A stretch of DNA of 17,503 nt from positions 1-17,503 of the forward strand of contig JAGADM010000061.1 in the NCBI GenBank assembly GCA_017613595.1. Reading direction: 5' to 3'. A program made the position numbers and the translations under genes. The DNA comes from Lachnospiraceae bacterium. Lineage in GTDB: Bacteria; Bacillota_A; Clostridia; Lachnospirales; Lachnospiraceae. The notes beneath the pieces are model-generated. The model saw only the letters and a program-made list of their open reading frames with translations, did not search any database and was not told the origin of the DNA. Below, in pieces: positions 3,126 to 16,188 of the stretch. The stretch's first letter is position 1. Every line of letters starts with the position of its first letter.

Positions 3126-4505
3126 ATGGACGAACAGAACAATAAAGACGGGCGGGACGGCTACGAAAACGTCTGCGCCATGTGTCACAGACCGGAAAGC
3201 GTGTGCGGAAAGCTGTTTCATCTGCCGCCGAATCTGACGCTTTGCGAAAGCTGCCTGCAGAAGTCATTTGACTTAATGGCATCGACACTCGATACGAGCG
3301 ACCCCGAGAAGATGATGGGCAACCTGAAGATCATCATCCCCGGAGCGCAGAACCGTGAGCCGATGAAGCTGAAGCCCAGGAAGAAAGAGGCGGAGGCACC
3401 GGAGAAGCAGGAGAGCGTGGAGAACGGCGACGTGATGGATATCGCGAAGCTTCCTTCCCCGCACGAGATCAAAGCAAAACTTGATGAATACGTAATCGGC
3501 CAGGATCATGCCAAGAAGGTGATCAGCGTGGCCGTTTACAACCATTATAAGCGTGTCCGCAGACAGGACGAGGAAGCGTTTAAGGACGATGTCATCATCG
3601 AAAAGTCCAATATGCTGATGCTCGGACCGACCGGCTGCGGCAAGACGTATCTTGTACAGACGCTCGCGAAGCTTTTAAATGTGCCGCTCGCGATCACCGA
3701 CGCGACGAGCCTTACCGAGGCCGGCTATATCGGCGATGACGTGGAGAGCGTGCTTTCGAAGCTTTTAGCCAATGCCGACAACGATGTGGAGCGTGCGGAG
3801 CACGGCATCGTATTTATCGACGAGATCGACAAGATCGCCAAGAAGAAGAATACGACAAGCCGCGATGTCAGCGGCGAGAGCGTACAGCAGGGTCTGTTAA
3901 AGCTTCTTGAGGGAGCCGATGTGGAAGTGCCGGTAGGCGCTTCGAGCAAGAACGGCATGGTTCCGACGACGATGGTCAACACGCGGAACATCCTGTTCAT
4001 ATGCGGCGGCGCTTTCCCGGGACTTGACGAGATCATCAAGACGCGGCTTACGAAGTCGTTTACGATGGGATTTAACTCTTATCTGAAGGACGAATTCGAC
4101 AAGGATCCGGACATTCTTTCGAAAGCGACGATGGAGGACCTCAGGGAATTCGGCATGGTGCCGGAGTTCATCGGCCGTCTTCCGGTCATCTACGCGCTGC
4201 GCGGACTTGACCGCGAGGCGATGAAGCGGATCCTGACCGAACCCAAGAACGCGATCATCAAGCAGTACCAGAAACTGTTCGCGATGGATGAGGTACAGCT
4301 CAAGTTCACTGACGACGCGCTCGACCTGATCGCGGAAAAGGCAATCGCCAAGGAAACCGGTGCCCGCGCCCTGCGTTCGATCCTCGAGGAATTCATGCTT
4401 GACATCATGTATGAGATCCCGAAGGACAGCTATATCGGAACCGTAACCATAACCGCGGATTATATTAACGGAAATGGTGCGCCGATTATTGAAATGCGAA
4501 GCTGA
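3126..4505 (+). CDS. clpX: ClpX-type AAA+ unfoldase, divergent member
   Basis: This 459-aa protein has the ClpX layout: an N-terminal zinc-binding domain (Cys17, Cys20, Cys40, Cys43), a long charged linker (about 55-105), and an AAA+ module. The module shows Walker A GPTGCGKT (167-174), pore loop GYIG (200-203), Walker B VFIDEID (229-235), arginine-finger box EFIGRLPV (347-354) and sensor 2 GARALR (412-417). ClpX unfolds proteins and feeds them to the ClpP protease. Two usually constant parts differ. The RKH substrate loop (GGRKHP in E. coli and B. subtilis) is replaced by SSKNG (273-277), and the ClpP-docking IGF loop reads MGF (314-316). It is also longer than the usual roughly 420 residues. 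There is no clpP or tig beside it. GGAG lies 4 bases before the ATG. It may be a specialised paralogue, with the main clpX elsewhere. Confidence 0.9.
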   Translation: MDEQNNKDGRDGYENVCAMCHRPESVCGKLFHLPPNLTLCESCLQKSFDLMASTLDTSDPEKMMGNLKIIIPGAQNREPMKLKPRKKEAEAPEKQESVENGDVMDIAKLPSPHEIKAKLDEYVIGQDHAKKVISVAVYNHYKRVRRQDEEAFKDDVIIEKSNMLMLGPTGCGKTYLVQTLAKLLNVPLAITDATSLTEAGYIGDDVESVLSKLLANADNDVERAEHGIVFIDEIDKIAKKKNTTSRDVSGESVQQGLLKLLEGADVEVPVGASSKNGMVPTTMVNTRNILFICGGAFPGLDEIIKTRLTKSFTMGFNSYLKDEFDKDPDILSKATMEDLREFGMVPEFIGRLPVIYALRGLDREAMKRILTEPKNAIIKQYQKLFAMDEVQLKFTDDALDLIAEKAIAKETGARALRSILEEFMLDIMYEIPKDSYIGTVTITADYINGNGAPIIEMRS

Positions 4506-4517
4506 ATGGTATATAAT
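4489..4517 (+). promoter_or_regulatory. promoter inside the clpX 3' end
   Basis: TTGAAA (4489-4494), a 17-base spacer and a perfect TATAAT (4512-4517). The -35 box lies in the last codons of clpX. It should drive the zinc-ribbon membrane protein gene alone, which has its own terminator at 5652-5685. Confidence 0.85.
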
Positions 4518-4559
4518 AGATTCAGACCTTAACCAAATGAGTAAAGGAGAGTGGAAGTC

Positions 4560-5633
4560 ATGTTTTGTGGAAAATGCGGAAATCAGATACCCGATGGCGT
4601 AGCTTTCTGTCCTTTCTGCGGCGAAAAGCTTGCGGAAGCGGCAGTTCAGGCAGCAGCTCCTGTTGTTGAAGCAGCGCAGAATGCAGCGGCTCCGGTCGTT
4701 GAAGAAGTGCAGAATGCGGCAGCACCTGTTGTTGAGGCGGCTGCACCCGTCGTGGAAGCAGCGGCACCCGTTATGGAAGCCGCACCTGTTCCGGAAGTTC
4801 CGGTTCAGCAGCCCGTTTATCAGCAGGCACCTGTGGAACAGCCCGTTTACCAGCAGCCTGTATATCAGCAGCCCATGTACCAGCAGCCGGCACCTCAGGT
4901 TCAGCAGCCGGCACCTCAGGTTCAGCAGCCTGTGTACCAGCAGCCCATGTATCAGCAGCCTGTATATCAGCAGCCGCTGTATCAGCAGTATCCGGACGTT
5001 CCGAAAAAGAAGTCAAAGGCCCCTTTGATCATCATTATCGTTCTTCTTGTTTTGCTTCTTGCAGGCGGCGGACTGATTGTTTATGAGACCTTCTTCGCAG
5101 ATGAGGAGGATCGCCCCGAAATCCTTGCCATGCTTGATTTCAAGAAAGAGGGCGACAAGCTTCCTCTTTCCGAGAAGGAGCAGAAGACCTTCACCAAGAT
5201 TGTAAAGAACATGGACCAGGCAATCATTGATACCGACGGCGACGCTTACGCGGAGTGCATTCCGTCCTACGCACGCAGCTTCGTATGGGGCGTTTACGGC
5301 GAGACCAGTGCGGACGCTTTTGTTAAGTATCTGTACGGCGATAAGGACAACGGTATCTCGAAGCTCGGCGATGACCTCAAGGTTACCGAGGAAATCGTAT
5401 CCGCCAAGAAGATCAGCAAGCTTGAGGATCTTACGGAAGCATTCGAGAAGGAATTCAAGAAGTCCGTTGATTTCGATGCAGCTTACCTTGTAACGAACAA
5501 CTCCTGCTTCAAGGGCGATGAGGATTCCCAGAAGTACGTTGATTACTATCTGTTCTTCCGTGAAGAGGATGAGGAAGACTGGAATGTCATCCTGATCGGA
5601 GAAGAGAATCTTGAGAAGTTCGGACTGAAATAA
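4560..5633 (+). CDS. zinc-ribbon, Pro/Gln/Tyr-repeat single-pass membrane protein, function unknown
   Basis: The 357-aa protein starts with a zinc ribbon (Cys3-x2-Cys6 and Cys17-x2-Cys20, MFCGKCG...FCPFCGEK). An Ala/Pro/Val/Glu-rich repeat follows (about 25-80, units like AAAPVVEAA), then a Gln/Pro/Tyr repeat (about 82-144, units like QQPVYQQP). A Lys-rich stop precedes one membrane helix (about 155-178), and the C-terminal domain of about 180 residues is acidic and shows no motif I recognise. With Lys residues before the helix, the zinc ribbon and repeats should be cytoplasmic and the C-terminal domain outside; this is inferred. I chose the ATG at 4560, 10 bases after AAAGGAG, over a GTG at 4551 that would sit only one base from it. 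The gene has its own promoter and terminator. Zinc-ribbon plus single-helix proteins are common in Clostridia, mostly uncharacterised. No function is assigned. Confidence 0.88.
   Translation: MFCGKCGNQIPDGVAFCPFCGEKLAEAAVQAAAPVVEAAQNAAAPVVEEVQNAAAPVVEAAAPVVEAAAPVMEAAPVPEVPVQQPVYQQAPVEQPVYQQPVYQQPMYQQPAPQVQQPAPQVQQPVYQQPMYQQPVYQQPLYQQYPDVPKKKSKAPLIIIIVLLVLLLAGGGLIVYETFFADEEDRPEILAMLDFKKEGDKLPLSEKEQKTFTKIVKNMDQAIIDTDGDAYAECIPSYARSFVWGVYGETSADAFVKYLYGDKDNGISKLGDDLKVTEEIVSAKKISKLEDLTEAFEKEFKKSVDFDAAYLVTNNSCFKGDEDSQKYVDYYLFFREEDEEDWNVILIGEENLEKFGLK
4632..4799 (+). repeat. Ala/Pro/Val/Glu coding repeat
   Basis: Degenerate in-frame repeats code for units like AAAPVVEAA (five APVVE/APVME copies across residues 25-80 of the zinc-ribbon membrane protein). 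The DNA copies differ at third codon positions, so selection seems to act on the protein. Confidence 0.75.
4800..4991 (+). repeat. Gln/Pro/Tyr coding repeat with a perfect 21-bp tandem duplication
   Basis: In-frame repeats of 12 to 15 bases code for QQPVYQQP, QQPMYQQP and related units (residues 81-144). Within them 4881-4901 is repeated exactly at 4902-4922 (coding QQPAPQV twice). The identity suggests a recent slippage duplication. The number of copies may vary between strains. Confidence 0.85.
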
Positions 5634-5651
5634 TACCAGTTTCGCACATTG

Positions 5652-5685
5652 ACTGTCGGCCGGTTATCCGGCCGACAGTTTTTTT
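5652..5685 (+). terminator. Rho-independent terminator of the zinc-ribbon membrane protein gene
   Basis: A perfect 12-bp stem (ACTGTCGGCCGG at 5652-5663 against 5668-5679) with a TTAT loop is followed directly by seven T (5679-5685). It lies 18 bases past the stop codon. Its T-tract shares bases with the -35 box of the next promoter. Confidence 0.95.
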
Positions 5686-5712
5686 GACTTTTTCGGATAA
5701 ATGTGGTACATT
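5684..5712 (+). promoter_or_regulatory. promoter of the mrp/mbh-like antiporter operon
   Basis: TTGACT (5684-5689), a 17-base spacer and TACATT (5707-5712). The -10 box is preceded by TGG, an extended -10 that makes up for its two mismatches. Transcription would start near 5719, about 32 bases before mrpE. No promoter or terminator is evident from here to 15287, so all ten genes probably share this start. Confidence 0.75.
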
Positions 5713-5750
5713 TAACCTGATTTTGGCTTTATGCGGAAAGAAGGCGCCAT

Positions 5751-6215
5751 ATGTTCTTTTTGTTTCTGATCATGTGGGTTATTTTAAACGGGAGATTGGA
5801 CCGGGAAGTGCTCGTAACAGGGCTCGTTCTGGCTGTTCCCGTTTATCTTTTTTTCTGCCTCGTAATGCGCTACACGCCGAAGAAGGAATGGAAGACGGTG
5901 AAACATTTTCCGTGGCTTTTAAAGTATATCGGCGTGCTGCTTGTGGAGATCATCAAGGCGAATTTTGCGGTGATCAGGCTGATTCTTTCGCCGAAGCTTG
6001 AACCCGAGCCGATTCTTGTGCATTTCAAAAAGCCGATGAAGAAGGACTCTCATAAGGTACTGCTTGCCAATTCCATCACGCTGACGCCGGGTACGATCAC
6101 GGTCGAGCTTGACGGAGACAATTACGCGGTGCATGCGCTTGATAAGGAATTCGCGGAAGGACTGGATTCTTCCGTATTTGTCGAGATGATCAAAGAACTG
6201 GAGGAGCGGGAATGA
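5751..6215 (+). CDS. mrpE: MrpE/MnhE/MbhA-like antiporter subunit
   Basis: This 154-aa membrane protein is the first gene of the operon. MrpE subunits are small accessory parts of Mrp-type Na+(K+)/H+ antiporters and correspond to MbhA of membrane-bound hydrogenases. Hydrophobic segments cover about residues 1-12, 20-38 and 55-80. The family signature LANSITLTPGT stands at 105-115, followed by a soluble C-terminal domain. The length fits the family (about 150-160). AAGG lies 6 bases before the ATG at 5751. The stop overlaps the mrpF start by four bases (ATGA), pointing to translational coupling. Confidence 0.93.
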   Translation: MFFLFLIMWVILNGRLDREVLVTGLVLAVPVYLFFCLVMRYTPKKEWKTVKHFPWLLKYIGVLLVEIIKANFAVIRLILSPKLEPEPILVHFKKPMKKDSHKVLLANSITLTPGTITVELDGDNYAVHALDKEFAEGLDSSVFVEMIKELEERE

Positions 6216-6520
6216 GCCTGTCTCAAGCATACAATCTGCTTTATAACGGTGCGATCATGTTCCTCGCGGTCATTATGCTCGCGGTGCTTTTCCGCGCGGT
6301 AAAGGGACCGGAGATCGTGGACCGTATCGTTGCCGTTAACATGCTCGGCACGCTGACGATCATGATCATCTGTATTCTTGCCGTAAAGCTTGCGCAGGGA
6401 TACCTTCTCGACGTGGCGATCATCTACGCGATGATCTCGTTTCTTGCCGTTGTGATCCTGACGAGGATCTATCTGGGCGTATACCTGGAGCGCGAACGGC
6501 GGAAAGGAGAGAAGTCATGA
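6212..6520 (+). CDS. mrpF: MrpF/MnhF/MbhB-like antiporter subunit
   Basis: This is a 102-aa subunit with three membrane helices (about 13-28, 44-60, 67-90). The family signature is visible: GPEIVDRIVAVN (32-43) after the first helix, and the conserved Asp67 in LLDVAIIYA within or at the edge of the third. MrpF sits in the small-subunit part of the Mrp complex and is thought to help form the cation path. Its start overlaps the mrpE stop and its stop overlaps the mrpG start, both as ATGA. The length is near the family norm of about 90. Confidence 0.93.
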   Translation: MSLSQAYNLLYNGAIMFLAVIMLAVLFRAVKGPEIVDRIVAVNMLGTLTIMIICILAVKLAQGYLLDVAIIYAMISFLAVVILTRIYLGVYLERERRKGEKS

Positions 6521-6864
6521 GCGGATGGGTTCTCTTCGGTATCGTTGCCATTCTGATCGTATGCGGTCTTGCCGTTACAGCGATTGCCGCGTTCGGTCTC
6601 TTTAAGTTCCGCTTTGCCCTGAACCGTATGCACGCGGCGGCCATGGCGGATACTCTCGGAATCATGCTTGTTCTGTGCGGACTGATCGTTGCGACCGGTC
6701 TTAACTTTGTGTCTTTAAAACTGGCGCTTATCATCATCCTTTTATGGTGTGCCGGACCGGTTTCGAGCCATCTGCTTGCCGGTTTTGAGGTTGCGACCTC
6801 TTCGAAATTTAAGGAAAACTGTGAATCCGACACGGATTCCGGAAAGGACGGTAAGGAAGAATGA
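6517..6864 (+). CDS. mrpG: MrpG/MnhG/MbhC-like antiporter subunit
   Basis: This is a 115-aa subunit with three predicted helices (about 5-27, 45-62, 67-82). The MrpG signature lies around residues 26-48: the RMHAAAMADTLG part (37-48) matches the usual RLHAATKADTLG pattern. GPVSSHLLA (80-88) matches the helix-3 end seen in the family. A charged, acidic tail of about 20 residues follows. GGAGAG lies a few bases before the ATG at 6517. The stop overlaps the next start as ATGA. Confidence 0.93.
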   Translation: MSGWVLFGIVAILIVCGLAVTAIAAFGLFKFRFALNRMHAAAMADTLGIMLVLCGLIVATGLNFVSLKLALIIILLWCAGPVSSHLLAGFEVATSSKFKENCESDTDSGKDGKEE

Positions 6865-7142
6865 CGAAGCCGATCGTACTGTTACTCGTTCTGTTTCTGA
6901 TCGTATGCGCAATCTGCGCCGGATGGACGAAGAATCTTCTCGTTTCCATCGTTATCTTCATGTCCTACAGCCTTATCATGTCCATTATCTGGATATTCCT
7001 GCAGGCGCCCGACCTCGCGATCACCGAGGCGGCTGTCGGTGCCGGAGTCACGTCCGTTCTGTTCTTTGCCACCCTCCGAAAGATCAACGCGATCGGTTCG
7101 GGTGACGGAAAGGAGGAACCGCATGAGCCGGATAAAAAGTAA
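6861..7142 (+). CDS. MbhD-like subunit (DUF4040 domain, equals part of the MrpA C-terminus)
   Basis: This 93-aa protein carries the MbhD/DUF4040 signature QAPDLAITEAAVGAG (48-62) between hydrophobic segments (about 5-20, 27-46, 56-71). In Bacillus-type Mrp systems this domain is fused inside the C-terminal part of the large MrpA. In archaeal Mbh hydrogenases it is the separate MbhD subunit, as here. Its start overlaps mrpG by four bases. Its hydrophilic tail overlaps the next gene by 20 bases, and that gene's ribosome binding site lies inside this frame. Confidence 0.9.
   Translation: MTKPIVLLLVLFLIVCAICAGWTKNLLVSIVIFMSYSLIMSIIWIFLQAPDLAITEAAVGAGVTSVLFFATLRKINAIGSGDGKEEPHEPDKK
7109..7116 (+). 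promoter_or_regulatory. ribosome binding site of the MbhE-MrpB fusion gene
   Basis: AAAGGAGG ends 6 bases before the ATG at 7123. It fixes the start there rather than at the upstream in-frame ATG at 7039, which lies deep inside the MbhD-like gene. Confidence 0.85.
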
Positions 7143-8082
7143 TTACGAGAAGTCTTTCCGGGCCCGTTTCCTCCGCTACATCATGGGAGAGGACGAACTT
7201 CCCGAGAAGAATTACATGCCCGACTTCCAGAAGCAGATTGACGTAGAGAAGGAAGAGGACGAGAAGGCGACCGAGCATTACCTTGTGCCGCCGCTTGTGG
7301 ACCCGATGTCCGACGCGAAGCGCTATGCGGAAATGTCCGGACTCCGCTGGTTCAGGAGACTCTATTCCGTTATGGCGGTGCTTCTCTGTATCGCGATCAG
7401 CGTCGTTCTGATCTATAACGTTACTTTCATGCCGCGTTTCGGAGATCCCGATTCGCCGATGAACAACGAAGTGACGGAGCGTTATCTTGAAAAAGCGGGA
7501 GAGGAAACCGGTACGGTCAATGTCGTTACCGGACTCATCCTCCAGTACCGCGGTTTTGATACATTCGGCGAGACGCATGTCCTTTTCATTGCAACGATCG
7601 CCGTTATGATCCTTCTCAAACTGAAGAAGAAGGATAAGCCTCAGGAGGCAGCCGGCGAGCCTGTGGGCGGCGATATGATCTTACGAACGATCGCGCGCGT
7701 ACTTGTGCCGCTTATCTTTCTGTTCGGCTTCTATGTGCTTGTGAACGGACACCTTTCCCCGGGCGGCGGTTTCTCCGGCGGCGCGGTAATCGGCGCGGGT
7801 CTGATCCTGCACTCGGCAGCGTTCGGATTTTCCGCTACGGCACGTTTCTTCGATGAGAAGATTTACGACATCGTGAAAGTCGGATCGCTTGCTTTATACA
7901 GCCTGCTGATCATCTATTACCTGTTTACGGGGGCAAATGACATCGATTCGATCGTGCCCCTCGGAAAACTCGGCAATATCATCAGTTCCGGTCTGATCCT
8001 TCCGATCAATATCTTAGTGGGAGCGGAGGTGGCATGCACGATGTATGCCTTCTACTCGCTGTTCCGGAAGGGAGGCATCTGA
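7123..8082 (+). CDS. MbhE-MrpB (MbhF) fusion antiporter subunit
   Basis: The 319-aa protein joins two Mrp/Mbh units. Residues 1-77 are a charged, probably cytoplasmic extension with no motif I recognise. Residues 80-167 are MbhE-like: a helix (about 80-100), then NEVTERYLEKAG (115-126), TGTVNVVTGLIL (129-140) and YRGFDTFGE (142-150), then a second helix. Residues 184-312 are a MnhB/MrpB domain with HLSPGGGFSGG (210-220) and four helices. In Bacillus the MbhE part is inside MrpA and MrpB is separate. In Pyrococcus MbhE and MbhF are separate. The start at 7123 has an ideal ribosome binding site and overlaps the MbhD-like gene by 20 bases. The stop shares one base with the next ATG (TGATG). The domain calls are firm; the role of the N-terminal extension is unknown. 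Confidence 0.88.
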   Translation: MSRIKSNYEKSFRARFLRYIMGEDELPEKNYMPDFQKQIDVEKEEDEKATEHYLVPPLVDPMSDAKRYAEMSGLRWFRRLYSVMAVLLCIAISVVLIYNVTFMPRFGDPDSPMNNEVTERYLEKAGEETGTVNVVTGLILQYRGFDTFGETHVLFIATIAVMILLKLKKKDKPQEAAGEPVGGDMILRTIARVLVPLIFLFGFYVLVNGHLSPGGGFSGGAVIGAGLILHSAAFGFSATARFFDEKIYDIVKVGSLALYSLLIIYYLFTGANDIDSIVPLGKLGNIISSGLILPINILVGAEVACTMYAFYSLFRKGGI

Positions 8083-8456
8083 TGTTCGCCGAACTTTGGG
8101 ACAATTATATCAGTGTCGGTGCGATGATCCTTTTCGGCATCGGATTCGGCAACCTCCTGCTGCAGCGGAACATGATCAAGAAGATCATCGGACTCAATAT
8201 CATGGATACCGCGGTGTACCTGTTCCTTGCTTCGCTCGGCTATATCGAAGGCCGGCTTGCGCCAATCCCCGCGGAAGGTGCCGTAGAAGCGTCAAAGTAC
8301 ATCAATCCGCTTCCGAGCGGCCTGGTACTTACCGGTATCGTCGTATCCGTCAGTGTTTCCGCGCTGATGCTCGGACTTACCGTGAAGCTTTACGAACGGT
8401 ATCACACGCTGGATCTCGACGAGATCACGACGATGGTACGAAAGGAGCATGAATGA
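8082..8456 (+). CDS. mrpC: MrpC/MnhC/MbhG-like (NuoK-like) antiporter subunit
   Basis: This is a 124-aa subunit of three helices (about 10-27, 38-55, 80-103) related to NuoK of respiratory complex I. The signature NPLPSGLVLTGIVVS (75-89) is clear, as is GLNIMDTAVYLFLASLG (37-53). I chose the ATG at 8082, which overlaps the previous stop and has GGAGG 6 bases upstream, over an ATG at 8034 inside the preceding gene. A charged tail follows the last helix. In Mrp complexes this subunit lies between the small subunits and the antiporter subunits. Confidence 0.93.
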   Translation: MFAELWDNYISVGAMILFGIGFGNLLLQRNMIKKIIGLNIMDTAVYLFLASLGYIEGRLAPIPAEGAVEASKYINPLPSGLVLTGIVVSVSVSALMLGLTVKLYERYHTLDLDEITTMVRKEHE

Positions 8457-9952
8457 TGGACTTCTTTCGTAATTTTCCGTTCTTCTGCATTATGCTTGCG
8501 ATTGTTTCGGGACCGATCTCATCGATCCTTTCCGGAAAGGTCGCGAGATTCGTAAGCATTACCGTCGTTTCGATATGCGGCGTGCTTTCGAGCCTGACGC
8601 TCTGGTACGTGATCGAGCTTGACGAGCCGTTCGTCTACAAGATGGGACGTTTCCCGGCTCCGTTCGGCAACGAGATCCGCGTCGGCGTGCTCGAGGCCCT
8701 TATGGCGACGTTCTTCTGCCTGATCATGCTCCTTTCGCTGACCGGCGGATTGAAGTATCTGAAGAAAGACGTGCCGGAAGAGAAGATGAACCTGTTCTTC
8801 ATCATGATCAACCTGCTGCTTGCTTCGCTACTGTCGCTCATTTATACAAATGATATGTTTACCGGCTATGTATTTGTCGAAATCAATACGATTGCCGCGT
8901 GCGGACTGATCATGATCCGCGGCTGGGGACGAAACATCCTTGCCACGACCAAGTATATGATCATGTCGCTTCTCGGTTCCGGTCTTGTTGTGATCTCAAT
9001 CGCAATCCTTTATGGGATTACCGGACACCTGCTTATGAGCAACGTTCATGAGTCGGTGCTTGCGATCGTAGAGCAGAAGACCTATACCGAGCCTTTGATC
9101 ATCGCGGTAGGACTGTTCTCGGTCGGTATCGCGATCAAATCCGCGCTGTTCCCGTTCCATTCGTGGCTGCCGGATGCCTACAGCTATTCGACATGTTCGT
9201 CGAGCGCGATCCTTTCCTCGCTCGTTTCGAAAGGCTACATCTTCTTCCTGTTGAAGTTCATGTGCCGTGTGATCGGCTTTGACGTGATGAAGAAGACCGG
9301 AGCGGACGACGTCATGTTCCTTTTCGGTATTGCCGCAATGCTGATCGGATCGATCGACGCGATCCAGCAGACGGATATGGGACGCATGATCGCGTACTCG
9401 TCCATCGCCCAGATCGGTTATATCTACATGGGTTTCGGGCTCGGCGTGGAAGCGGGGCTTGTCGCTTCGGCGTTCCACATTTTAGCGCATGCTTCGGCCA
9501 AATCCATGCTGTTTGTTTCCGCGAACGGACTCGCCGAAGTGTCGGGAGAGAGCATGAATTACCGCGACCTGCGAGGGTCCGGCATGCGGAACCGGTCGGC
9601 GGGCGTCGGATTTATCGTCGGGTCGCTTTCGATGGTCGGCATCCCGCTTTTCGCGGGCTTTACTTCAAAGGTTTACTTCGCGTCGGCGGCGCTTGAGGCC
9701 ATAAGGGCCAAGCAGATCATTACCCTTGTGGCGCTTGCGATCAGTACGATCCTGAACGCGATGTACTTTATCCGGATGACGATCAGCGTTTATACGCCGG
9801 AGATGAACGAGCAGTACGAAGACCGTTCGTTCCGCGCAGGTACGCTGTATCATCTGTCCATGGTTGTATTTATTCTGATTGTTTTGGTTCTCGGAATCCT
9901 CAGCAACCCGATTGTTGAGTGGATCACGAGAGGTCTTGAACAGTTTTCCTGA
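8453..9952 (+). CDS. mrpD: MrpD/MbhH-like proton/cation antiporter subunit 1
   Basis: This is a 499-aa protein of about 14 helices, homologous to NuoL/M/N of complex I. Ion-path residues stand in their usual places: Glu143 (FVEIN), Lys229 (AIKSALFPFHSWLPDAY, 227-243), Lys260 (LVSKG), His342/His346 and Lys350 (HILAHASAK), and Lys406 (FTSKVYF). Unlike its three downstream relatives, the loop after HSWLPDAY reads SYSTCSSSAILSS and lacks the prolines of the usual APxPxSALL segment. It follows MrpC directly, as MbhH follows MbhG, so it is the best match to MrpD/MbhH. The start overlaps the mrpC stop. ATG 8453 and ATG 8456 both lie near AAAGGAG. Direction and type of ion moved are not visible. Confidence 0.92.
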   Translation: MMDFFRNFPFFCIMLAIVSGPISSILSGKVARFVSITVVSICGVLSSLTLWYVIELDEPFVYKMGRFPAPFGNEIRVGVLEALMATFFCLIMLLSLTGGLKYLKKDVPEEKMNLFFIMINLLLASLLSLIYTNDMFTGYVFVEINTIAACGLIMIRGWGRNILATTKYMIMSLLGSGLVVISIAILYGITGHLLMSNVHESVLAIVEQKTYTEPLIIAVGLFSVGIAIKSALFPFHSWLPDAYSYSTCSSSAILSSLVSKGYIFFLLKFMCRVIGFDVMKKTGADDVMFLFGIAAMLIGSIDAIQQTDMGRMIAYSSIAQIGYIYMGFGLGVEAGLVASAFHILAHASAKSMLFVSANGLAEVSGESMNYRDLRGSGMRNRSAGVGFIVGSLSMVGIPLFAGFTSKVYFASAALEAIRAKQIITLVALAISTILNAMYFIRMTISVYTPEMNEQYEDRSFRAGTLYHLSMVVFILIVLVLGILSNPIVEWITRGLEQFS

Positions 9953-9966
9953 AAGGAGGGTGACAT

Positions 9967-11538
9967 ATGGAATGGATTTTATTGCTGCCGGTTATCATTC
10001 CGATCATCGGCGGATGCTATCTGACAATATTCCGGAAGCGTTTCTCGAAGCGCGCCGTCCGTACGTGCACCTTCTGTTTTGCGCTGGCCGCGGGGCTTTC
10101 CGTGCTTGCCGTAATTCTTCAGGGGGAATGTTCGCTGACGCTTTTTCCGCTGATCTCGGACGACTATCCGGTCTTCTTCCGTTCGGACGGCCTGGCGGGA
10201 ATTTTCGCCGCGGTAACGGCAGTTATGTGGCTTCTTTCGAGCTGGTTCTCATTTGCCTACATGAATCATCAGGAAAATGAGACGCGTTACCAGATATTCT
10301 CGCTGTTGTCGCTCGGCGCGGTGCTCGGCGTATGTCTTTCGGGCAATCTGATTACGACGTATCTTTTCTATGAACTGATGACGCTTATGACGTTCCCGCT
10401 TGTTCTTCACGAGCAGACAAAGGAGGCGGTTTCCGCCGGAATGACGTACCTGTTCTACTCGATTGCAGGCGCGTTTTTGGGACTTTGCGGAATCTTCTTC
10501 TTAAGCCGGTATGCCGGTACGGAGACTCGCGCGGGAGGCCTTCTCGGGTATATGCCGGGCGGATTCCTTGCGGAGGGAACGGGTTATGACGTTCTTCCGG
10601 TGGTTCTGTTTCTGATGCTTTTGGGGCTTGCCTGCAAGGCCGGTATGTTCCCGCTTCACGGATGGCTTCCGAAGGCGCATCCGGTTGCTCCGGCGCCGGC
10701 TTCGGCACTGCTTTCCGGTAACATTACGAAGATGGGACTTCTGTTCTCCATCCGTGTGATTTATTATGCGGCGGGCGCGGATTACCTGTCGGGCACATGG
10801 GTCATGGATGCGTTGCTCACGCTTTCCCTGATCACCGTATTCCTCGGATCGATGCTTGCTTACCGCGAAAAAGTGATGAAGAAACGGCTTGCGTACTCAA
10901 CGGTCAGCCAGGTTTCATATTGTCTGACGGGAGTGTATCTGCTTTGCGGGACGGCTCTCACGGGCGCGATTTTACACATGATATTCCATTCAATCGTTAA
11001 GAACCTGCTGTTCCTTTCGGTCGGCGCGATCATTTACGTGACCGGCAAGACGCGCGCGGACGAGCTGAAGGGGATAGGAAAGAAGATGCCCGTTACGATG
11101 CGCTGCTTTACGGTTGCGGGTCTTGCGCTTGTCGGAATTCCGCCGCTTTGCGGTTTTGTGAGCAAGTTTTATCTGGCGGCCGGTGCCCTTGAGACCGATA
11201 AACCCGTCTTTTCCTACCTTGTTCCTGCCGTGCTTTTAGTCAGCGCGCTGCTGACGGCCGGATATCTGCTGACGGTTTCCGCGGACGCGTTCTTCGGAAA
11301 GAGCGAAGAGAAGGCGGAGGGCGGCAAAGCGGACGCGCAGAGCGGTGCTTCCGAGGCGCAGGACGATACGGAACTCACCGCTTCGGAGAAGCACGAGCCC
11401 GTTACGGAGAAGAGCCTGTTCCTGCTTGCTCCGCTTGTAATCCTTGCGGTTGCGGCAGTCGTATTCGGTATCATTCCGAACCCGCTGACGAACCTGATCC
11501 GCGAAGCTCTGAAAGCGATTCTTAAGGGTGTAATGTAA
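9967..11538 (+). CDS. NuoM/MrpD-like antiporter subunit 2
   Basis: This 523-aa paralogue of the preceding protein also has about 14 helices. It keeps Glu136 (FYELMT), Lys224 (CKAGMFPLHGWLPKAHPV, 223-240), the APAPASALLSG loop (241-251), Lys255 (ITKMG), His337/His341 and Lys345 (HMIFHSIVKN), and Lys400 (GFVSKFYL). A hydrophilic Ala/Glu/Lys/Ser-rich insertion (about 443-482) separates the last two helices. AAAGGAGG ends 7 bases before the ATG at 9967. The motifs resemble those of HyfB/HycC and Mbh-type subunits more than those of respiratory NuoL. It probably forms one of several pumping units of the same complex. Confidence 0.9.
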   Translation: MEWILLLPVIIPIIGGCYLTIFRKRFSKRAVRTCTFCFALAAGLSVLAVILQGECSLTLFPLISDDYPVFFRSDGLAGIFAAVTAVMWLLSSWFSFAYMNHQENETRYQIFSLLSLGAVLGVCLSGNLITTYLFYELMTLMTFPLVLHEQTKEAVSAGMTYLFYSIAGAFLGLCGIFFLSRYAGTETRAGGLLGYMPGGFLAEGTGYDVLPVVLFLMLLGLACKAGMFPLHGWLPKAHPVAPAPASALLSGNITKMGLLFSIRVIYYAAGADYLSGTWVMDALLTLSLITVFLGSMLAYREKVMKKRLAYSTVSQVSYCLTGVYLLCGTALTGAILHMIFHSIVKNLLFLSVGAIIYVTGKTRADELKGIGKKMPVTMRCFTVAGLALVGIPPLCGFVSKFYLAAGALETDKPVFSYLVPAVLLVSALLTAGYLLTVSADAFFGKSEEKAEGGKADAQSGASEAQDDTELTASEKHEPVTEKSLFLLAPLVILAVAAVVFGIIPNPLTNLIREALKAILKGVM

Positions 11539-11539
11539 T

Positions 11540-13120
11540 ATGAGTGCTTACTTTCTGCTGATTCCCATACTGCTTCCGATCATCGGCGGCGCCTTTCTGG
11601 GAATACATCCGATGAAACAGGACAGACGAAGAAACATCTTCGTCTTTTCGGTGACCTTTCTCACGTCCTGTATGATCGGGGCATTGCTGCTGAATCCGCC
11701 CGGCGCGGACGATCTCACCCTGCAGCTCGCGGGCGTACTTGAGATCCGTTTCCGTCTGGACGGGTGCGGTATGATATTTGCCGGTCTGATCGCATTCCTG
11801 TGGCCCCTCGCGGTCATCTATGCGTTCGGCTATATTGAGCGCAGAAAGAACGGCTTCCTTGCCTTTTACGTCATTACGTACGGCGTGACGTCCGGTATCG
11901 TGTTCGCGGGCAACTTCATGACAATGTATATGTTTTATGAGCTGCTGACGATCGTAACGATTCCGCTTGTCATGCACGAACTCGACCATAAATCGGTTGT
12001 CGCCGCGCGCAAATACATGAAGTATTCGTTCGGCGGGGCGGCATTCGGCTTCCTCGGATTCATCGTTATCCTGAAGTACGGCACTACGCTTGATTTCGTT
12101 TACGGAGGCGTGCTGCGGGCCGATGCGATGCAGCAGCACCGCACGCTGTTACTGCTGATCTATACGATCGCGGTATTCGGCTTCGGCGTCAAAGCGGCGC
12201 TCTTTCCGGTACACGGATGGCTTCCGGCAGCTTCGGTCGCGCCGACTCCGGTTACGGCACTTCTGCATGCGGTTGCGGTCGTAAAGGCGGGCGCATTTGC
12301 CATCATCAGAATCACGTATTACAGCTTCGGAACGGACTTCTTAAAGGGAACCGTTTCGCAGAACATCATCATATGCGCCGCATCGCTGACTATCCTTTAC
12401 GGTTCGGTGAAGGCGGTGAAAGAGCAGCACTGTAAGAGAAGACTTGCCTACTCGACGGTCAGCAACCTGTCGTATATCATTCTGGCGGCGTCGCTGATGA
12501 CCGAAGCGGGTCTGCAGGCGGGATTTTTACACCTGCTGTTCCACGGTCTCATGAAGATTACGCTTTTCTACTGCATGGGCGTTATCATGCTGCGGACCGG
12601 CAAGAAGTACCTGTGGGAGATGAACGGCATCGGCCGGCGGGTACCGCTTATCATGACGATTTACACGATCGCCGGAACCGCTCTGATCGGCATTCCGCCG
12701 CTTTGCGGATTCATCAGCAAATGGCATATCGCCGAAGCCGCGATCGCGTCGGAGAACCCGTTCGCGTACGTCGGACTCGGCGCGCTGATGATTTCGGCGT
12801 TTCTGACGGCAATCTATATTATGGAGCTTGTGATCCGGGCATGGTTCCCGGTACTGTTCGCGGGTGAAACGAAACCTTCCGGCCCGATGATCGAGGCGGC
12901 CAATGAGGCGGATACGATGACGGTCGGCGGCGACGACGGCACAACCGACGTGGTAATGGCCGACGCGCTTGTACCGGGCGAAGACACAAGCCGTATCAAG
13001 GTCGGCTGGGAGATGAGCGCGCCGCTCATCGTTCTGACGATCGCAATCATCTTTTTCGGTTTATATTCCGGTCCTCTGGCGGAGTTCATCCGGCAGGTAG
13101 CGGCCGGCATCAGGAGATAA
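11540..13120 (+). CDS. NuoM/MrpD-like antiporter subunit 3
   Basis: This is a 526-aa protein, clearly related to the two upstream antiporter subunits. Key residues are Glu134 (FYELLT), Lys218 (GVKAALFPVHGWLPAASVAP, 216-235), Lys249 (VVKAG), His331/His335 and Lys339 (HLLFHGLMKI), and Lys394 (GFISKWHI). The loop TPVTALLHAV (236-245) is the Mrp-type form. An acidic, Gly/Asp-rich insertion (about 441-487) lies before the last helix, at the same place as in subunit 2 but with unrelated sequence. It starts one base after the preceding stop with AAGGGTG about 9 bases upstream. The similar length and shared IGIPPLCGF motif (subunits 2 and 3) suggest an old duplication. Confidence 0.9.
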   Translation: MSAYFLLIPILLPIIGGAFLGIHPMKQDRRRNIFVFSVTFLTSCMIGALLLNPPGADDLTLQLAGVLEIRFRLDGCGMIFAGLIAFLWPLAVIYAFGYIERRKNGFLAFYVITYGVTSGIVFAGNFMTMYMFYELLTIVTIPLVMHELDHKSVVAARKYMKYSFGGAAFGFLGFIVILKYGTTLDFVYGGVLRADAMQQHRTLLLLIYTIAVFGFGVKAALFPVHGWLPAASVAPTPVTALLHAVAVVKAGAFAIIRITYYSFGTDFLKGTVSQNIIICAASLTILYGSVKAVKEQHCKRRLAYSTVSNLSYIILAASLMTEAGLQAGFLHLLFHGLMKITLFYCMGVIMLRTGKKYLWEMNGIGRRVPLIMTIYTIAGTALIGIPPLCGFISKWHIAEAAIASENPFAYVGLGALMISAFLTAIYIMELVIRAWFPVLFAGETKPSGPMIEAANEADTMTVGGDDGTTDVVMADALVPGEDTSRIKVGWEMSAPLIVLTIAIIFFGLYSGPLAEFIRQVAAGIRR

Positions 13121-13121
13121 T

Positions 13122-15287
13122 ATGAGTGGTGAAGCAGGGCTGCTTCTTCCCGTCATGATACCGATCGTCCTGGCATTGGTGCCGGGGCTTCTGACAGCGG
13201 CGGGAGAGCGTAAGGACAACAAAGCGTATACGGCGTGCGGGAAATTCCTGTTTCCGGCGCTTACTTGCGTTACGCTTCTTGCGTGCTGCGTTTACGGCAT
13301 CCGTGCCCTTACCGGCTCCGCTCTTGAGCTGACCGTACCCGAGATCTGCGGCTTCGGCCTTCGGTTCCGCATGGACGGATTCCGCGCGGTTTACGCGATG
13401 GTCGCCGCATTTGCCTGGGCCGTTTCTTCGGCGTTCGCGCTCTGGTACCTGAAGGGGGAGGAGCATCAGGGACGGTATTTCGGCTATACGCTTTTCGTAC
13501 TCGGCATGACGCTCGGCGTATTTCTTTCCGCCGACCTTATGACGACTTTCATCTTCTTTGAAGGCATGTCTCTTGCTTCGTATGTATGGGTTGTCTTTGA
13601 AGAGGACGAAGAGGCCGTACGGGCTTCGAAAACGTACCTCGCGGTTGCCGTGATCGGCGGACTCGTGATGCTGATGGGGCTGTTCCTTCTCTGGAAGGAG
13701 ACCGGAACGCTGATGATCGACGACCTTACATTTGCCGCAAGAATGAGCGGCAATAAGACGGTGATCTACGCGGCGGGCTTCTGCATGCTGTTCGGCTTCG
13801 GCGCGAAGGCAGGCGCCTACCCGCTTCACATATGGCTTCCGAAGGCACATCCGGTGGCTCCCGCGCCCGCTTCGGCGCTGCTTTCCGGTATCCTTACGAA
13901 GGCCGGCATGTACGGCATTCTGATCCTTGTCGGAAGAATATTCATCGGCGATGAGTATTTCGGACAGATCCTTCTCGTGATCGCCGTTCTCACGATGTTA
14001 ACCGGCGCATTTATCGCGCTGTTCTCGATTGATATCAAGCATGTGCTTGCGTGCTCGTCGGTTTCGCAGATCGGCTTTATCCTGACCGGCGCTTCCCTCG
14101 CATGCATCGTAAAAGAAGAGCAGTGGCTTGCCGTACAGGGCGCGATCCTTCACATGATGAATCACTCGTTCTTTAAGCTTGTGCTGTTCCTGCTTGCGGG
14201 CGTTCTCGTTAAGAATCTGCACTCGCGGAACCTGAACGACCTGTCCGGCTTCGGTAAGGAAAAGCCGTGGTTTATGGTAACGTTTTTACTTGCGTATCTC
14301 GGCATCGCGGGCATTCCGGGACTCTCGGGATTCGTTTCGAAGTCAATGATCCACGAGGCCATCGTCGTTGCGGCCGGGGAGAGCGGAAGCGGCATCTACA
14401 AGGTTGTTGAGTGGCTTTTCCTGATTGCTGGCGGCTGCACGCTTGCCTACATGACCAAGCTGTTCATCGTGCTGTTCTTCCGTCCGCAGTCGAACGCCGT
14501 AAAGGCTTTCAACAATAAGAATAAACAGTACCTGCCGTTATGGGCGAAGATACTTTTAAGCGTACCGGCCGCAGCCATCTATCTTGCGGGAACGCTTCCC
14601 GAATATCTGATGATCCCGGCCGCGAAGAAGGCTTCCGACCTGCTCAATTATGCTCCTGCCGAAGAGTCGTTCCGTGTCTTCACGGCGGAAAATGTGAAGG
14701 GCGGCGCCATTTCGGCAGCCATCGGCCTTGCGGTATACTTCTTCGCCGTACGTCCGTTAACCGAGCGGAAGGGACGTAAGAACGTAATCGAATACGTGAA
14801 CCGTTATCCGGCATACATAGACCTTGAGAACGCGCTGTACCGTCCGGTTCTTCTGACCGGTCTTCCGACCGTATGCGGCGGAGCGTGCCGCACGCTTGAA
14901 ATGGCAAGCGAAGGCATCGCAAAGATGGTATTCGGATTCTCGAAACTGATCGCCGGATTCGCCGACCGCATCGCGGACCTTGCGACGGCGGGAGTTCGCA
15001 GAACCGTGCTTCGGCCGGTGTGCGAGACGCCGACGCTGTCGACAACCAAACGGTTCAGCTTATTTGCCGGCGGCATCGCGAACGGCATCCGGAGCCTGTG
15101 GCGCAAGCTGCTTCGAAAGAGCGGCGGAGAGCAGAAGGACTACGTGAAGAAGATCAACCGCGGCATCGACGACACAAGCGAGACGTTCAAGTACGTCGTG
15201 CGCAGTCTTTCGTACGGATTGCTCGCATTTTGCGTCGGTTTACTTGCAATGTTACTGTATCTGTTGTATTGTTTACAGGGGCTTTAA
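13122..15287 (+). CDS. NuoL/HyfB-like antiporter subunit 4 with long C-terminal extension
   Basis: The 721-aa protein has an antiporter core (about 1-500) with Glu147 (FFEGMS), Lys229 (AKAGAYPLHIWLPKAHPV, 228-245), APAPASALLSG (246-256), Lys260 (LTKAG), His344/His348 and Lys352 (HMMNHSFFKL), and Lys407 (GFVSKSMI). A hydrophobic helix (about 527-544) is followed by about 145 mostly polar residues that may hold amphipathic helices (590-665), then a final membrane helix (about 695-718). In NuoL and MrpA a long lateral helix ending in a last membrane anchor spans the neighbouring antiporters. The extension here may do the same; this is inference from layout, not from sequence match. AGGAG lies 5 bases before the ATG. 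It is the last gene of the operon. Confidence 0.9.
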   Translation: MSGEAGLLLPVMIPIVLALVPGLLTAAGERKDNKAYTACGKFLFPALTCVTLLACCVYGIRALTGSALELTVPEICGFGLRFRMDGFRAVYAMVAAFAWAVSSAFALWYLKGEEHQGRYFGYTLFVLGMTLGVFLSADLMTTFIFFEGMSLASYVWVVFEEDEEAVRASKTYLAVAVIGGLVMLMGLFLLWKETGTLMIDDLTFAARMSGNKTVIYAAGFCMLFGFGAKAGAYPLHIWLPKAHPVAPAPASALLSGILTKAGMYGILILVGRIFIGDEYFGQILLVIAVLTMLTGAFIALFSIDIKHVLACSSVSQIGFILTGASLACIVKEEQWLAVQGAILHMMNHSFFKLVLFLLAGVLVKNLHSRNLNDLSGFGKEKPWFMVTFLLAYLGIAGIPGLSGFVSKSMIHEAIVVAAGESGSGIYKVVEWLFLIAGGCTLAYMTKLFIVLFFRPQSNAVKAFNNKNKQYLPLWAKILLSVPAAAIYLAGTLPEYLMIPAAKKASDLLNYAPAEESFRVFTAENVKGGAISAAIGLAVYFFAVRPLTERKGRKNVIEYVNRYPAYIDLENALYRPVLLTGLPTVCGGACRTLEMASEGIAKMVFGFSKLIAGFADRIADLATAGVRRTVLRPVCETPTLSTTKRFSLFAGGIANGIRSLWRKLLRKSGGEQKDYVKKINRGIDDTSETFKYVVRSLSYGLLAFCVGLLAMLLYLLYCLQGL

Positions 15288-15348: not shown

Positions 15349-16188
15349 ATGGCATTACTGATAGACGGAAAGAAAATCTCCGCGGAGATTAAGGACGAAC
15401 TGAAGGTGCAGGTTGCCGGGCTCGCCGCAAAGGGTGTTTCAATCACGCTTGCGGTAATCCAGGTCGGCGATGACAAGGCATCGTCGGTTTACGTAGGAAA
15501 CAAGAAGAAGGCCTGCGAGTACATCGGCGTAAAGTCGCTCGCATACGAACTGCCCGAGGCTACGACCGAGGCGGAGCTTCTTAAGCTGGTAAAGGAATTG
15601 AATGAGCGGAAGGACGTGAACGGCATTCTCGTTCAGCTGCCGCTCCCGAAGCATATCAACGAGGACGCGGTTCTTCTCGCAATCGATCCCGATAAGGACG
15701 TGGACGGATTCCATCCGGTCAGCGTAGGCCGCCTCTGGATCGGCCAGAAGGGCTATGAGTCCTGTACGCCTGCCGGCATTATCCAGCTTCTTAAGCGTTC
15801 CGGAATCGAGATTGCCGGTAAGGAGTGCGTGATCGTAGGCCGCAGCAACATCGTCGGAAAGCCGATGGCGGCTCTTCTTCTTCGGGAGAACGGTACCGTT
15901 ACCGTATGCCATTCCCGCACGAAGGATCTCGCTTCCATAACGAAGCGCGCCGATATTCTGGTTGTGGCAATCGGAAAGCCGAAGTTCATTACGGCGGAAT
16001 ATGTGAAGGAAGGCGCCGTTGTCATCGACGTCGGCATTCACAGAATGGAAGATAACAAGCTTTGCGGCGACGTGGATTTCGCAGACGTTGAGCCGCACGT
16101 ATCCGCGATTACCCCCGTTCCCGGCGGCGTAGGCCCGATGACCATCGCCATGCTGATGTGCAACGTGGTAAGAAGCGCGGAACAGTAA
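15349..16188 (+). CDS. folD: FolD, methylene-THF dehydrogenase / methenyl-THF cyclohydrolase
   Basis: This 279-aa cytoplasmic enzyme interconverts 5,10-methylene-, 5,10-methenyl- and 10-formyl-tetrahydrofolate, normally with NADP(H). Visible motifs are the catalytic YVGNK (Tyr48, Lys52), VNGILVQLPLP (90-100), DKDVDGFHP (115-123), the Rossmann segment VIVGRSNIVGKP (161-172), CHSRT (187-191) and TPVPGGVGPMT (255-265). Length and motifs are typical. GGAGG and AAGG lie just before the ATG at 15349. The gap of 61 bases after the antiporter operon holds no terminator, so read-through is possible. A weak own promoter may exist (TTGCAA at 15244 and TATTGT at 15267, 17-base spacer). Confidence 0.96.
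   Translation: MALLIDGKKISAEIKDELKVQVAGLAAKGVSITLAVIQVGDDKASSVYVGNKKKACEYIGVKSLAYELPEATTEAELLKLVKELNERKDVNGILVQLPLPKHINEDAVLLAIDPDKDVDGFHPVSVGRLWIGQKGYESCTPAGIIQLLKRSGIEIAGKECVIVGRSNIVGKPMAALLLRENGTVTVCHSRTKDLASITKRADILVVAIGKPKFITAEYVKEGAVVIDVGIHRMEDNKLCGDVDFADVEPHVSAITPVPGGVGPMTIAMLMCNVVRSAEQ

Follow-up and report, generated by a model that had tools for sequence, protein, structure and literature searches.

A 17,503-nt stretch of Lachnospiraceae bacterium DNA (contig JAGADM010000061.1; the whole stretch is hereafter the window) raises the question of whether a ten-gene membrane operon on its + strand (5751-15287) encodes a cation/proton antiporter with four ion paths, or the membrane arm of a redox pump whose catalytic part is encoded elsewhere. 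The closely packed genes run in the order MrpE-F-G-MbhD-(MbhE+MrpB)-MrpC-MrpD-D1-D2-D3, in which MrpD (hereafter D), D1, D2 and D3 are the four Proton_antipo_M proteins, and all of the subunit families are Mrp/Mbh membrane families. The initial annotation offered both alternatives, and the first one fits the evidence. On gene content and sequence comparison, the operon is most probably that of an enlarged group-3 Mrp (CPA3) cation/proton antiporter that stands alone, and not that of a redox-pump arm, with a probability of about 0.84. As first annotated, folD is the next gene after the operon. The window genes, flanks included, encode no catalytic subunit of a hydrogenase or of complex I.

Distribution of the operon and search for a redox partner

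The operon was surveyed in 299 genomes of the family to which G001, the genome of locus L001, belongs (L numbers denote loci and G numbers genomes). The MbhD family was found at 72 places in 70 of these genomes, and all 72 were inspected. This operon type occupied 61 of them, and all ten genes were in order at 50. Because the same ten-gene order is seen at 50 of 72 MbhD places, the layout is not due to chance; the gene-order comparison across Lachnospiraceae indicates that it recurs in the family and is not a curiosity of one genome. The 50 consist of 48 of the 49 full orders in the alignment set (the 49th, L002, lies outside the sample) together with L077 and L078; within the full-order set, D3 of L028 is cut by a contig end and the D3 match of L036 is weak. 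The nearest loci (L001-L003) are in metagenome-assembled genomes (MAGs) labelled Lachnospiraceae or Lachnoclostridium, with D3 best-segment identities of 94, 90 and 85%, respectively. Among cultivated relatives, Lachnoclostridium phytofermentans encodes a relative of D2 with 51% identity. The other 11 of the 61 loci were cut by a contig end (L044, L072-L075), contained split genes (L034, L045, L055), had MbhD fused into the next frame (L047) or carried a reduced gene set (L066, L038). In L038, apparently a rearranged operon, unrelated genes, some of them sugar-transferase-like, come after MbhD. Of the remaining 11 of the 72 places, seven have a linked 49-kDa-fold gene (L015, L058, L062, L063, L070, L076, L079), L071 has a three-antiporter operon of a different type, L080 and L081 have operons with one antiporter subunit each, and at L082 the MbhD match was below the family cut-off and the profile search gave no Mrp gene.

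The window shares the order E-F-G-MbhD-MbhE-B-C-D with mbh/mbs, as expected for the membrane arm of a redox-driven pump related to membrane-bound hydrogenase (MBH), membrane-bound sulfane reductase (MBS) or Ech, with its catalytic subunits elsewhere in the genome; PF00346-linked Mbh-type operons do occur in the family, at the seven places given above. We searched the 63 operon genomes (61 of the sample plus G002 and G003) for PF00346 (49-kDa/NiFe fold), PF00146 (NADHdh/MbhM) and PF01058 (Oxidored_q6/MbhJ). PF00346 was present in 37 of the 299 genomes, 4 of 61 with the operon and 33 of 238 others (Fisher p 0.19), and shows no positive association with the operon across the 299 genomes. It was absent from 57 of the 61 operon genomes, and PF00146 and PF01058 were both absent from 59 of the 63; none of the three nearest relatives carried any of these families. 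The proposal that unlinked catalytic subunits might co-occur with the operon was accordingly not borne out, as PF00346, PF00146 and PF01058 were confined to the same four genomes (G013, G153, G214, G301), which carry all three families on contigs other than that of the operon, and two of which (G214, G301) also have a separate Mbh-type operon, so that both types coexist there. G049 and G268, each essentially one contig, contain none of the three families. Proton_antipo_M (PF00361) gave exactly four matches, all at the operon, in G001, G002, G192, G049, G268 and G152, and five in G003, fitting the same genes broken across two contigs. The listing of the 25 commonest flanking-gene families contained no redox partner of this operon type. 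With these absences of three catalytic or anchor families, and with one or two antiporter subunits instead of four at the linked loci (see below), a membrane arm served by catalytic subunits encoded elsewhere is very unlikely.

Subunit number was compared with catalytic linkage by counting antiporter proteins of at least 400 aa in each fetched stretch. A phylum sample of 60 loci, fetched from the listed places and five of them touching a contig end, comprised 4 PF00346-linked loci and 56 that were unlinked, meaning no PF00346 nearby and nothing more. Among the 11 linked loci (seven from the family, four from the phylum), ten had one antiporter subunit and one had two. The 56 unlinked phylum loci had none (1 locus, touching a contig end), one (4), two (9), three (32), four (6), five (2) or seven (2) antiporter subunits, and two of them, L111 and L120, show the same arrangement as the window. 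The window operon is on the side without a catalytic partner, and its subunit number is above average, though not unique.

The survey also brought up other Mrp operons. Seven antiporter subunits are encoded in L140 (1082-15372) and L141 (3961-18487), whose genomes, G668 and G534, each have a three-antiporter Mrp operon as well (L104 and L097, respectively). L085 and L087 contain five antiporter-type genes per Mrp operon, one of them upstream of MrpE. Single-antiporter Mrp operons (L080, L081, L116, L130, L135), in genomes without PF00346 above the cut-off, recall the stand-alone Mrp of Pyrococcus furiosus; G434, the genome of L135, has one weak PF00346 match elsewhere. A separate three-antiporter operon type (L071, L091, L095, L122, L126, L127, L138) ends with a subunit of approximately 576-617 aa; in the tree, those sampled from L091 and L127 group with the hydrogenase-linked subunits.

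The ten genes and the four antiporter subunits

As first annotated, the ten genes are consecutive, in the order given and on one strand, and a profile search of the window proteins placed each above its Pfam cut-off. The annotated extent of 5684-15287 holds at its end; at its start, MrpE begins at ATG 5751, and 5684 is a TTG of another frame. The genes are as follows:

5751-6215, + strand: MrpE (MbhA-type), 154 aa; Pfam MNHE, 107.8 bits
6212-6520, + strand: MrpF (MbhB-type), 102 aa; Pfam MrpF_PhaF, 48.5 bits
6517-6864, + strand: MrpG (MbhC-type), 115 aa; Pfam PhaG_MnhG_YufB, 68.4 bits
6861-7142, + strand: MbhD, 93 aa; Pfam MbhD, 75 bits; aligns with 6u8y_D and 6cfw_D
7123-8082, + strand: MbhE-MrpB fusion in one chain; Pfam MnhB, 82.9 bits, and MbhE, 41.1 bits
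8082-8456, + strand: MrpC (NuoK-like), 124 aa; Pfam Oxidored_q2, 75.5 bits; top NCBIfam models are Mrp subunit C
8453-9952, + strand: D, MrpD/MbhH-type antiporter subunit, 499 aa; Proton_antipo_M, 161 bits; closest solved structure 6cfw_H
9967-11538, + strand: D1 antiporter subunit, 523 aa; Proton_antipo_M, 185 bits; D2 duplicate bearing Ser where D2 has the His of transmembrane helix (TM) 8
11540-13120, + strand: D2 antiporter subunit, 526 aa; Proton_antipo_M, 176 bits; carries the MrpA/NuoL-hallmark His
13122-15287, + strand: D3, NuoL/MrpA-like antiporter subunit, 721 aa; Proton_antipo_M, 206 bits; C-terminal lateral helix in the model

With corrected starts, adjacent genes overlap by 1-20 nt or are separated by 1-14 nt; the starts of MbhE-MrpB (ATG 7123) and MrpC (ATG 8082) were picked by eye as the most likely ones. 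MbhD corresponds to a piece of the MrpA C-terminal domain in Bacillus, and the closest solved structure to the MbhE-MrpB fusion is 6u8y_E.

Upstream of the operon are genes for a zinc-ribbon protein, an AAA protein (ClpX-like by eye), a sugar transferase and a trypsin/PDZ protease; downstream, folD (15349-16188) is followed by a radical-SAM gene (from 16199), RimO-like by eye. In L001, the nearest relative, the three genes past the RimO-like one encode a CDP-alcohol phosphatidyltransferase, an HI0933-type flavoprotein-cytidylate kinase fusion and a LytB-S1 protein. A functional tie between the operon and folD was considered and rejected, as folD is near just 7 of 63 loci.

The antiporter subunits were aligned with solved MrpD, MrpA and MbhH, and conservation was scored across 49 operons. 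The proton-path sites, which we take to be a Glu in TM5 and a Lys each in TM7, TM8 and TM12, are occupied as follows:

D: E143, K229, K260, K406; kept in 49, 49, 48 and 49 of 49
D1: E136, K224, K255, K400; all four kept in 49 of 49
D2: E134, K218, K249, K394; kept in 49, 49, 43 and 49 of 49, the six exceptions being Asn
D3: E147, K229, K260, K407; kept in 48, 47, 47 and 47 of 49, five of the seven losses being gaps

By alignment, all four subunits have the complete Glu-Lys-Lys-Lys set predicted for proton conduction, each site being kept in 43-49 of 49 operons. MbhD Glu56 and the Glu of the MbhE DTFGE motif are each kept in 49 of 49 relatives; the motif aligns with Dietzia MrpA, and its Glu is likely the second sodium-loading Glu described in a passage of PMC9568556.

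In a tree of 113 antiporter proteins, with SH-aLRT as the sole support measure, D1 and D2 each form a clade (support 99-100), and the two are sisters (joint support 99); beside them sits the one D2-type gene of L101, a three-antiporter locus (support 85). A single tandem duplication explains the step from three to four antiporter subunits. D2 has His243, the MrpA/NuoL hallmark, in 49 of 49 operons, whereas D1 has Ser250 at that TM8 site in 49 of 49. As the D2-type genes of the other loci examined have His there, the Ser of D1 is probably the derived state.

The structural model of D3 (mean pLDDT 85, pTM 0.79) contains a 61-residue helix at 568-628 and a C-terminal helix at 674-719, with confidence dropping to 38-75 past residue 620. 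Matches to MrpA and NuoL span 640-740 columns; in a second comparison, in which MrpD 7qru_D had the highest Z, the match to NuoL reached model residue 579-632. The model shows that D3 bears a predicted NuoL-type lateral helix. Since a lateral helix is also found in MrpA, its presence in D3, although a feature of complex-I terminal subunits, is not diagnostic. The idea that the helix was lengthened with subunit number was rejected, as four-antiporter tails are not longer than two-antiporter ones: tail length was 331-387 residues in the uncut two-antiporter loci L083, L084 and L096, against a median of 294 for 48 four-antiporter-type proteins, in a comparison whose text pattern missed some proteins and included truncated ones and whose two-antiporter group takes in L003 and L094, both of which are cut.

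The lack of tail lengthening with subunit number, together with the presence of just two antiporter subunits (A and D) in the solved Mrp complexes 6z16, 7qru and 7d3u and the divergence of the duplicates D1 and D2 at the TM8 His/Ser site, would suit an arrangement in which at least two assemblies share genes, a canonical Mrp being built from D and one of D1-D3 while the others are swapped in according to conditions. This is improbable, however, given that all four genes keep a tight one-strand order in 49 operons with nearly invariant proton-path residues, and that the small subunit MbhD is present once in G001.

For the single enlarged antiporter that we favor, comparison with solved Mrp, MBH and MBS suggests that the cation-handling end would consist of MrpE, F and G, MbhD and both parts of the MbhE-MrpB fusion. 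MrpC would join this end to four antiporter-like subunits in a row, all of them with the full proton-path set. D3, with its lateral helix, would probably be the outer end, and exchange would be driven by electrochemical ion gradients, not by electron transfer. In fermenting Lachnospiraceae it would probably serve to couple the sodium circuit to the proton circuit, or else to maintain pH and Na+/K+ balance. The genes and their order, their conservation, the proton-path residues, the lack of the usual catalytic partners, the duplication history and the modelled lateral helix are observations, from which we infer assembly into one complex, cation species, direction of exchange and physiological role.

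It is an open question whether every antiporter-like subunit of Mrp and complex I transports a proton of its own, and why some of these machines contain more such subunits; the stoichiometry of Mrp antiporters is described as unknown in a passage of PMC9568556. Operons without a 49-kDa partner and with one to seven antiporter subunits constitute a natural experiment on proton carriage per subunit, and the recurrence of the four-channel layout in many relatives offers a route to the role of each additional channel. As a speculative possibility, the loci without a linked 49-kDa subunit might form an Mrp series of one to seven complete proton-path subunits in which number sets the gearing: for each cation moved, a four-subunit complex would transport more protons than the Bacillus type with two, so that it could set up a steeper sodium gradient or exploit a weaker one, and duplication with a subsequent His-to-Ser change (D2 versus D1) would have turned one copy into a new relay module.

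Energy setting and the transported cation

Rnf may run on either Na+ or H+; 54 of the 63 operon genomes have it, and it is absent from G001, G002, G003, G192, G190, G176, G117, G229 and G214. Eight of these Rnf-less genomes (all except G214) were checked further: the OAD_beta subunit of sodium-pump decarboxylases was found in seven, G190 being without it, and H+-pyrophosphatase in none. G001, G002, G003 and G192 each have two ATP-synthase c-subunits, one of which contains GPGIGQGYAAG and LGQAVAETTG and resembles known Na+ c-rings, whereas the other is without that Gln, presumably the mark of a Na+ type c-subunit. Where a cell runs a sodium ATPase alongside a proton ATPase, the two gradients have to be balanced, and an Mrp antiporter would supply that balance; the operon may link sodium and proton circuits in this way in the nearest relatives. 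It is a candidate for such a link in gut and rumen fermenters.

The same machine might instead mostly move K+, for K+/H+ or pH homeostasis, as suggested by the naming of some NCBIfam Mrp families as K+/H+ antiporter subunits. The distribution of Rnf and OAD_beta and the Na-like c-subunits argue circumstantially for sodium, and we regard the potassium version as doubtful. A riboswitch was sought as a clue to the cation and dismissed, as the window has no Rfam match at the gathering threshold; six relatives yielded only tRNAs.

Several points weigh against a stand-alone cation/proton antiporter. The support for it is genomic, sequence-based and model-based, and cation/proton exchange is a prediction. 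The missing catalytic partners are judged from relatives' genomes, many of them MAGs, and by three families, which leaves room for catalytic modules of other families; in the phylum survey the single criterion was PF00346. By eye, an FMN-reductase-like gene precedes or adjoins the seven-antiporter operons L140 and L141, and a 4Fe-4S-like protein is encoded about 1.5 kb downstream of the five-antiporter operon L085. The gene set is also separable: L066 (G137; 4321-12352) is a four-antiporter operon starting at MbhD with no adjacent E-F-G, and L038 (G042; 13013-14688) has just E-F-G-MbhD left. The lack of D3 tail lengthening disfavors a simple row of subunits clamped by the tail. Rnf is widespread among the operon genomes, though the nearest relatives are without it, and Rfam gives no riboswitch hint to the cation.

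Comparison with known systems

Group 3 Mrp is defined in a passage of PMC8415708 by the absence of an MrpA gene and the presence of one or more MrpD-type genes, and in parts of PMC5703873 by irregular gene order, with some clusters containing mrpA counted in; the latter also describes mrp clusters of anaerobes as markedly unlike those of aerobes. Multi-MrpD clusters of group 3 and the stand-alone P. furiosus Mrp are already on record in passages of both papers, and the contrast with Bacillus mrp drawn in the initial annotation overlooked this published class. In the window, the E, F, G, B, C and D families are in one cluster, there is no MrpA (antiporter domain and MbhD/E are never on one chain), the gene order is irregular, and the proton-path Glu and Lys are predicted in all four antiporter subunits. 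The 49-kDa/NiFe-fold subunit of MBH/MBS is missing from the window genes and the three nearest relatives, and MbhM/NuoH-type (PF00146) and MbhJ/NuoB-type (PF01058) subunits are likewise missing from these relatives and present in 4 of 63 genomes; homologues of NuoB, NuoD and NuoH accompanying the antiporter subunits, as in complex I including the 2M type, were likewise not found. By these sequence-checkable features, the operon belongs with group 3 and lacks the trait that defines MBH, MBS and complex I.

According to passages of PMC5703873, mrpFGBCDDAE of Microbacterium sp. TS-1 and mrpCD1D2EFGAB of Aphanothece likewise combine an irregular order with more than one MrpD-type subunit, but both name mrpA, whereas in the window an MrpA chain is missing, the antiporter subunits are four separate proteins, MbhD stands apart and MbhE is fused to MrpB. 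The P. furiosus cluster mrpEFGBB'CD (PMC8415708, in part) shares the Mbh-like order without a redox module; it has no MrpA homologue and stops at MrpD, to which the window adds D1, D2 and D3, with the MrpA-type His in D2 and the lateral helix in D3. The membrane arms of Pyrococcus MBH and MBS have the same families in the same order for the first genes, and MbsE is a comparable MbhE-MrpB fusion (PMC8415708, in part), but the window has no catalytic module and four antiporter subunits against their one or two. Chains of the solved Bacillus, Anoxybacillus and Dietzia Mrp complexes match the window antiporter subunits and MbhE-MrpB, although those complexes have two antiporter subunits and the window has the MrpA halves on separate chains. 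Extra antiporter-type subunits in the membrane arm are also known from 2M and Manganitrophaceae complex I (4-5 pumping subunits), which a passage of PMC9040806 describes as redox complexes with a lateral-helix insertion, whereas the window has no redox part and no lengthening was found. A literature search, mostly at the level of titles and passages, returned no account of this ten-gene layout. The operon is a known type, the Mrp antiporter, in an enlarged form with four antiporter subunits against the usual two, and this form is common to many relatives.

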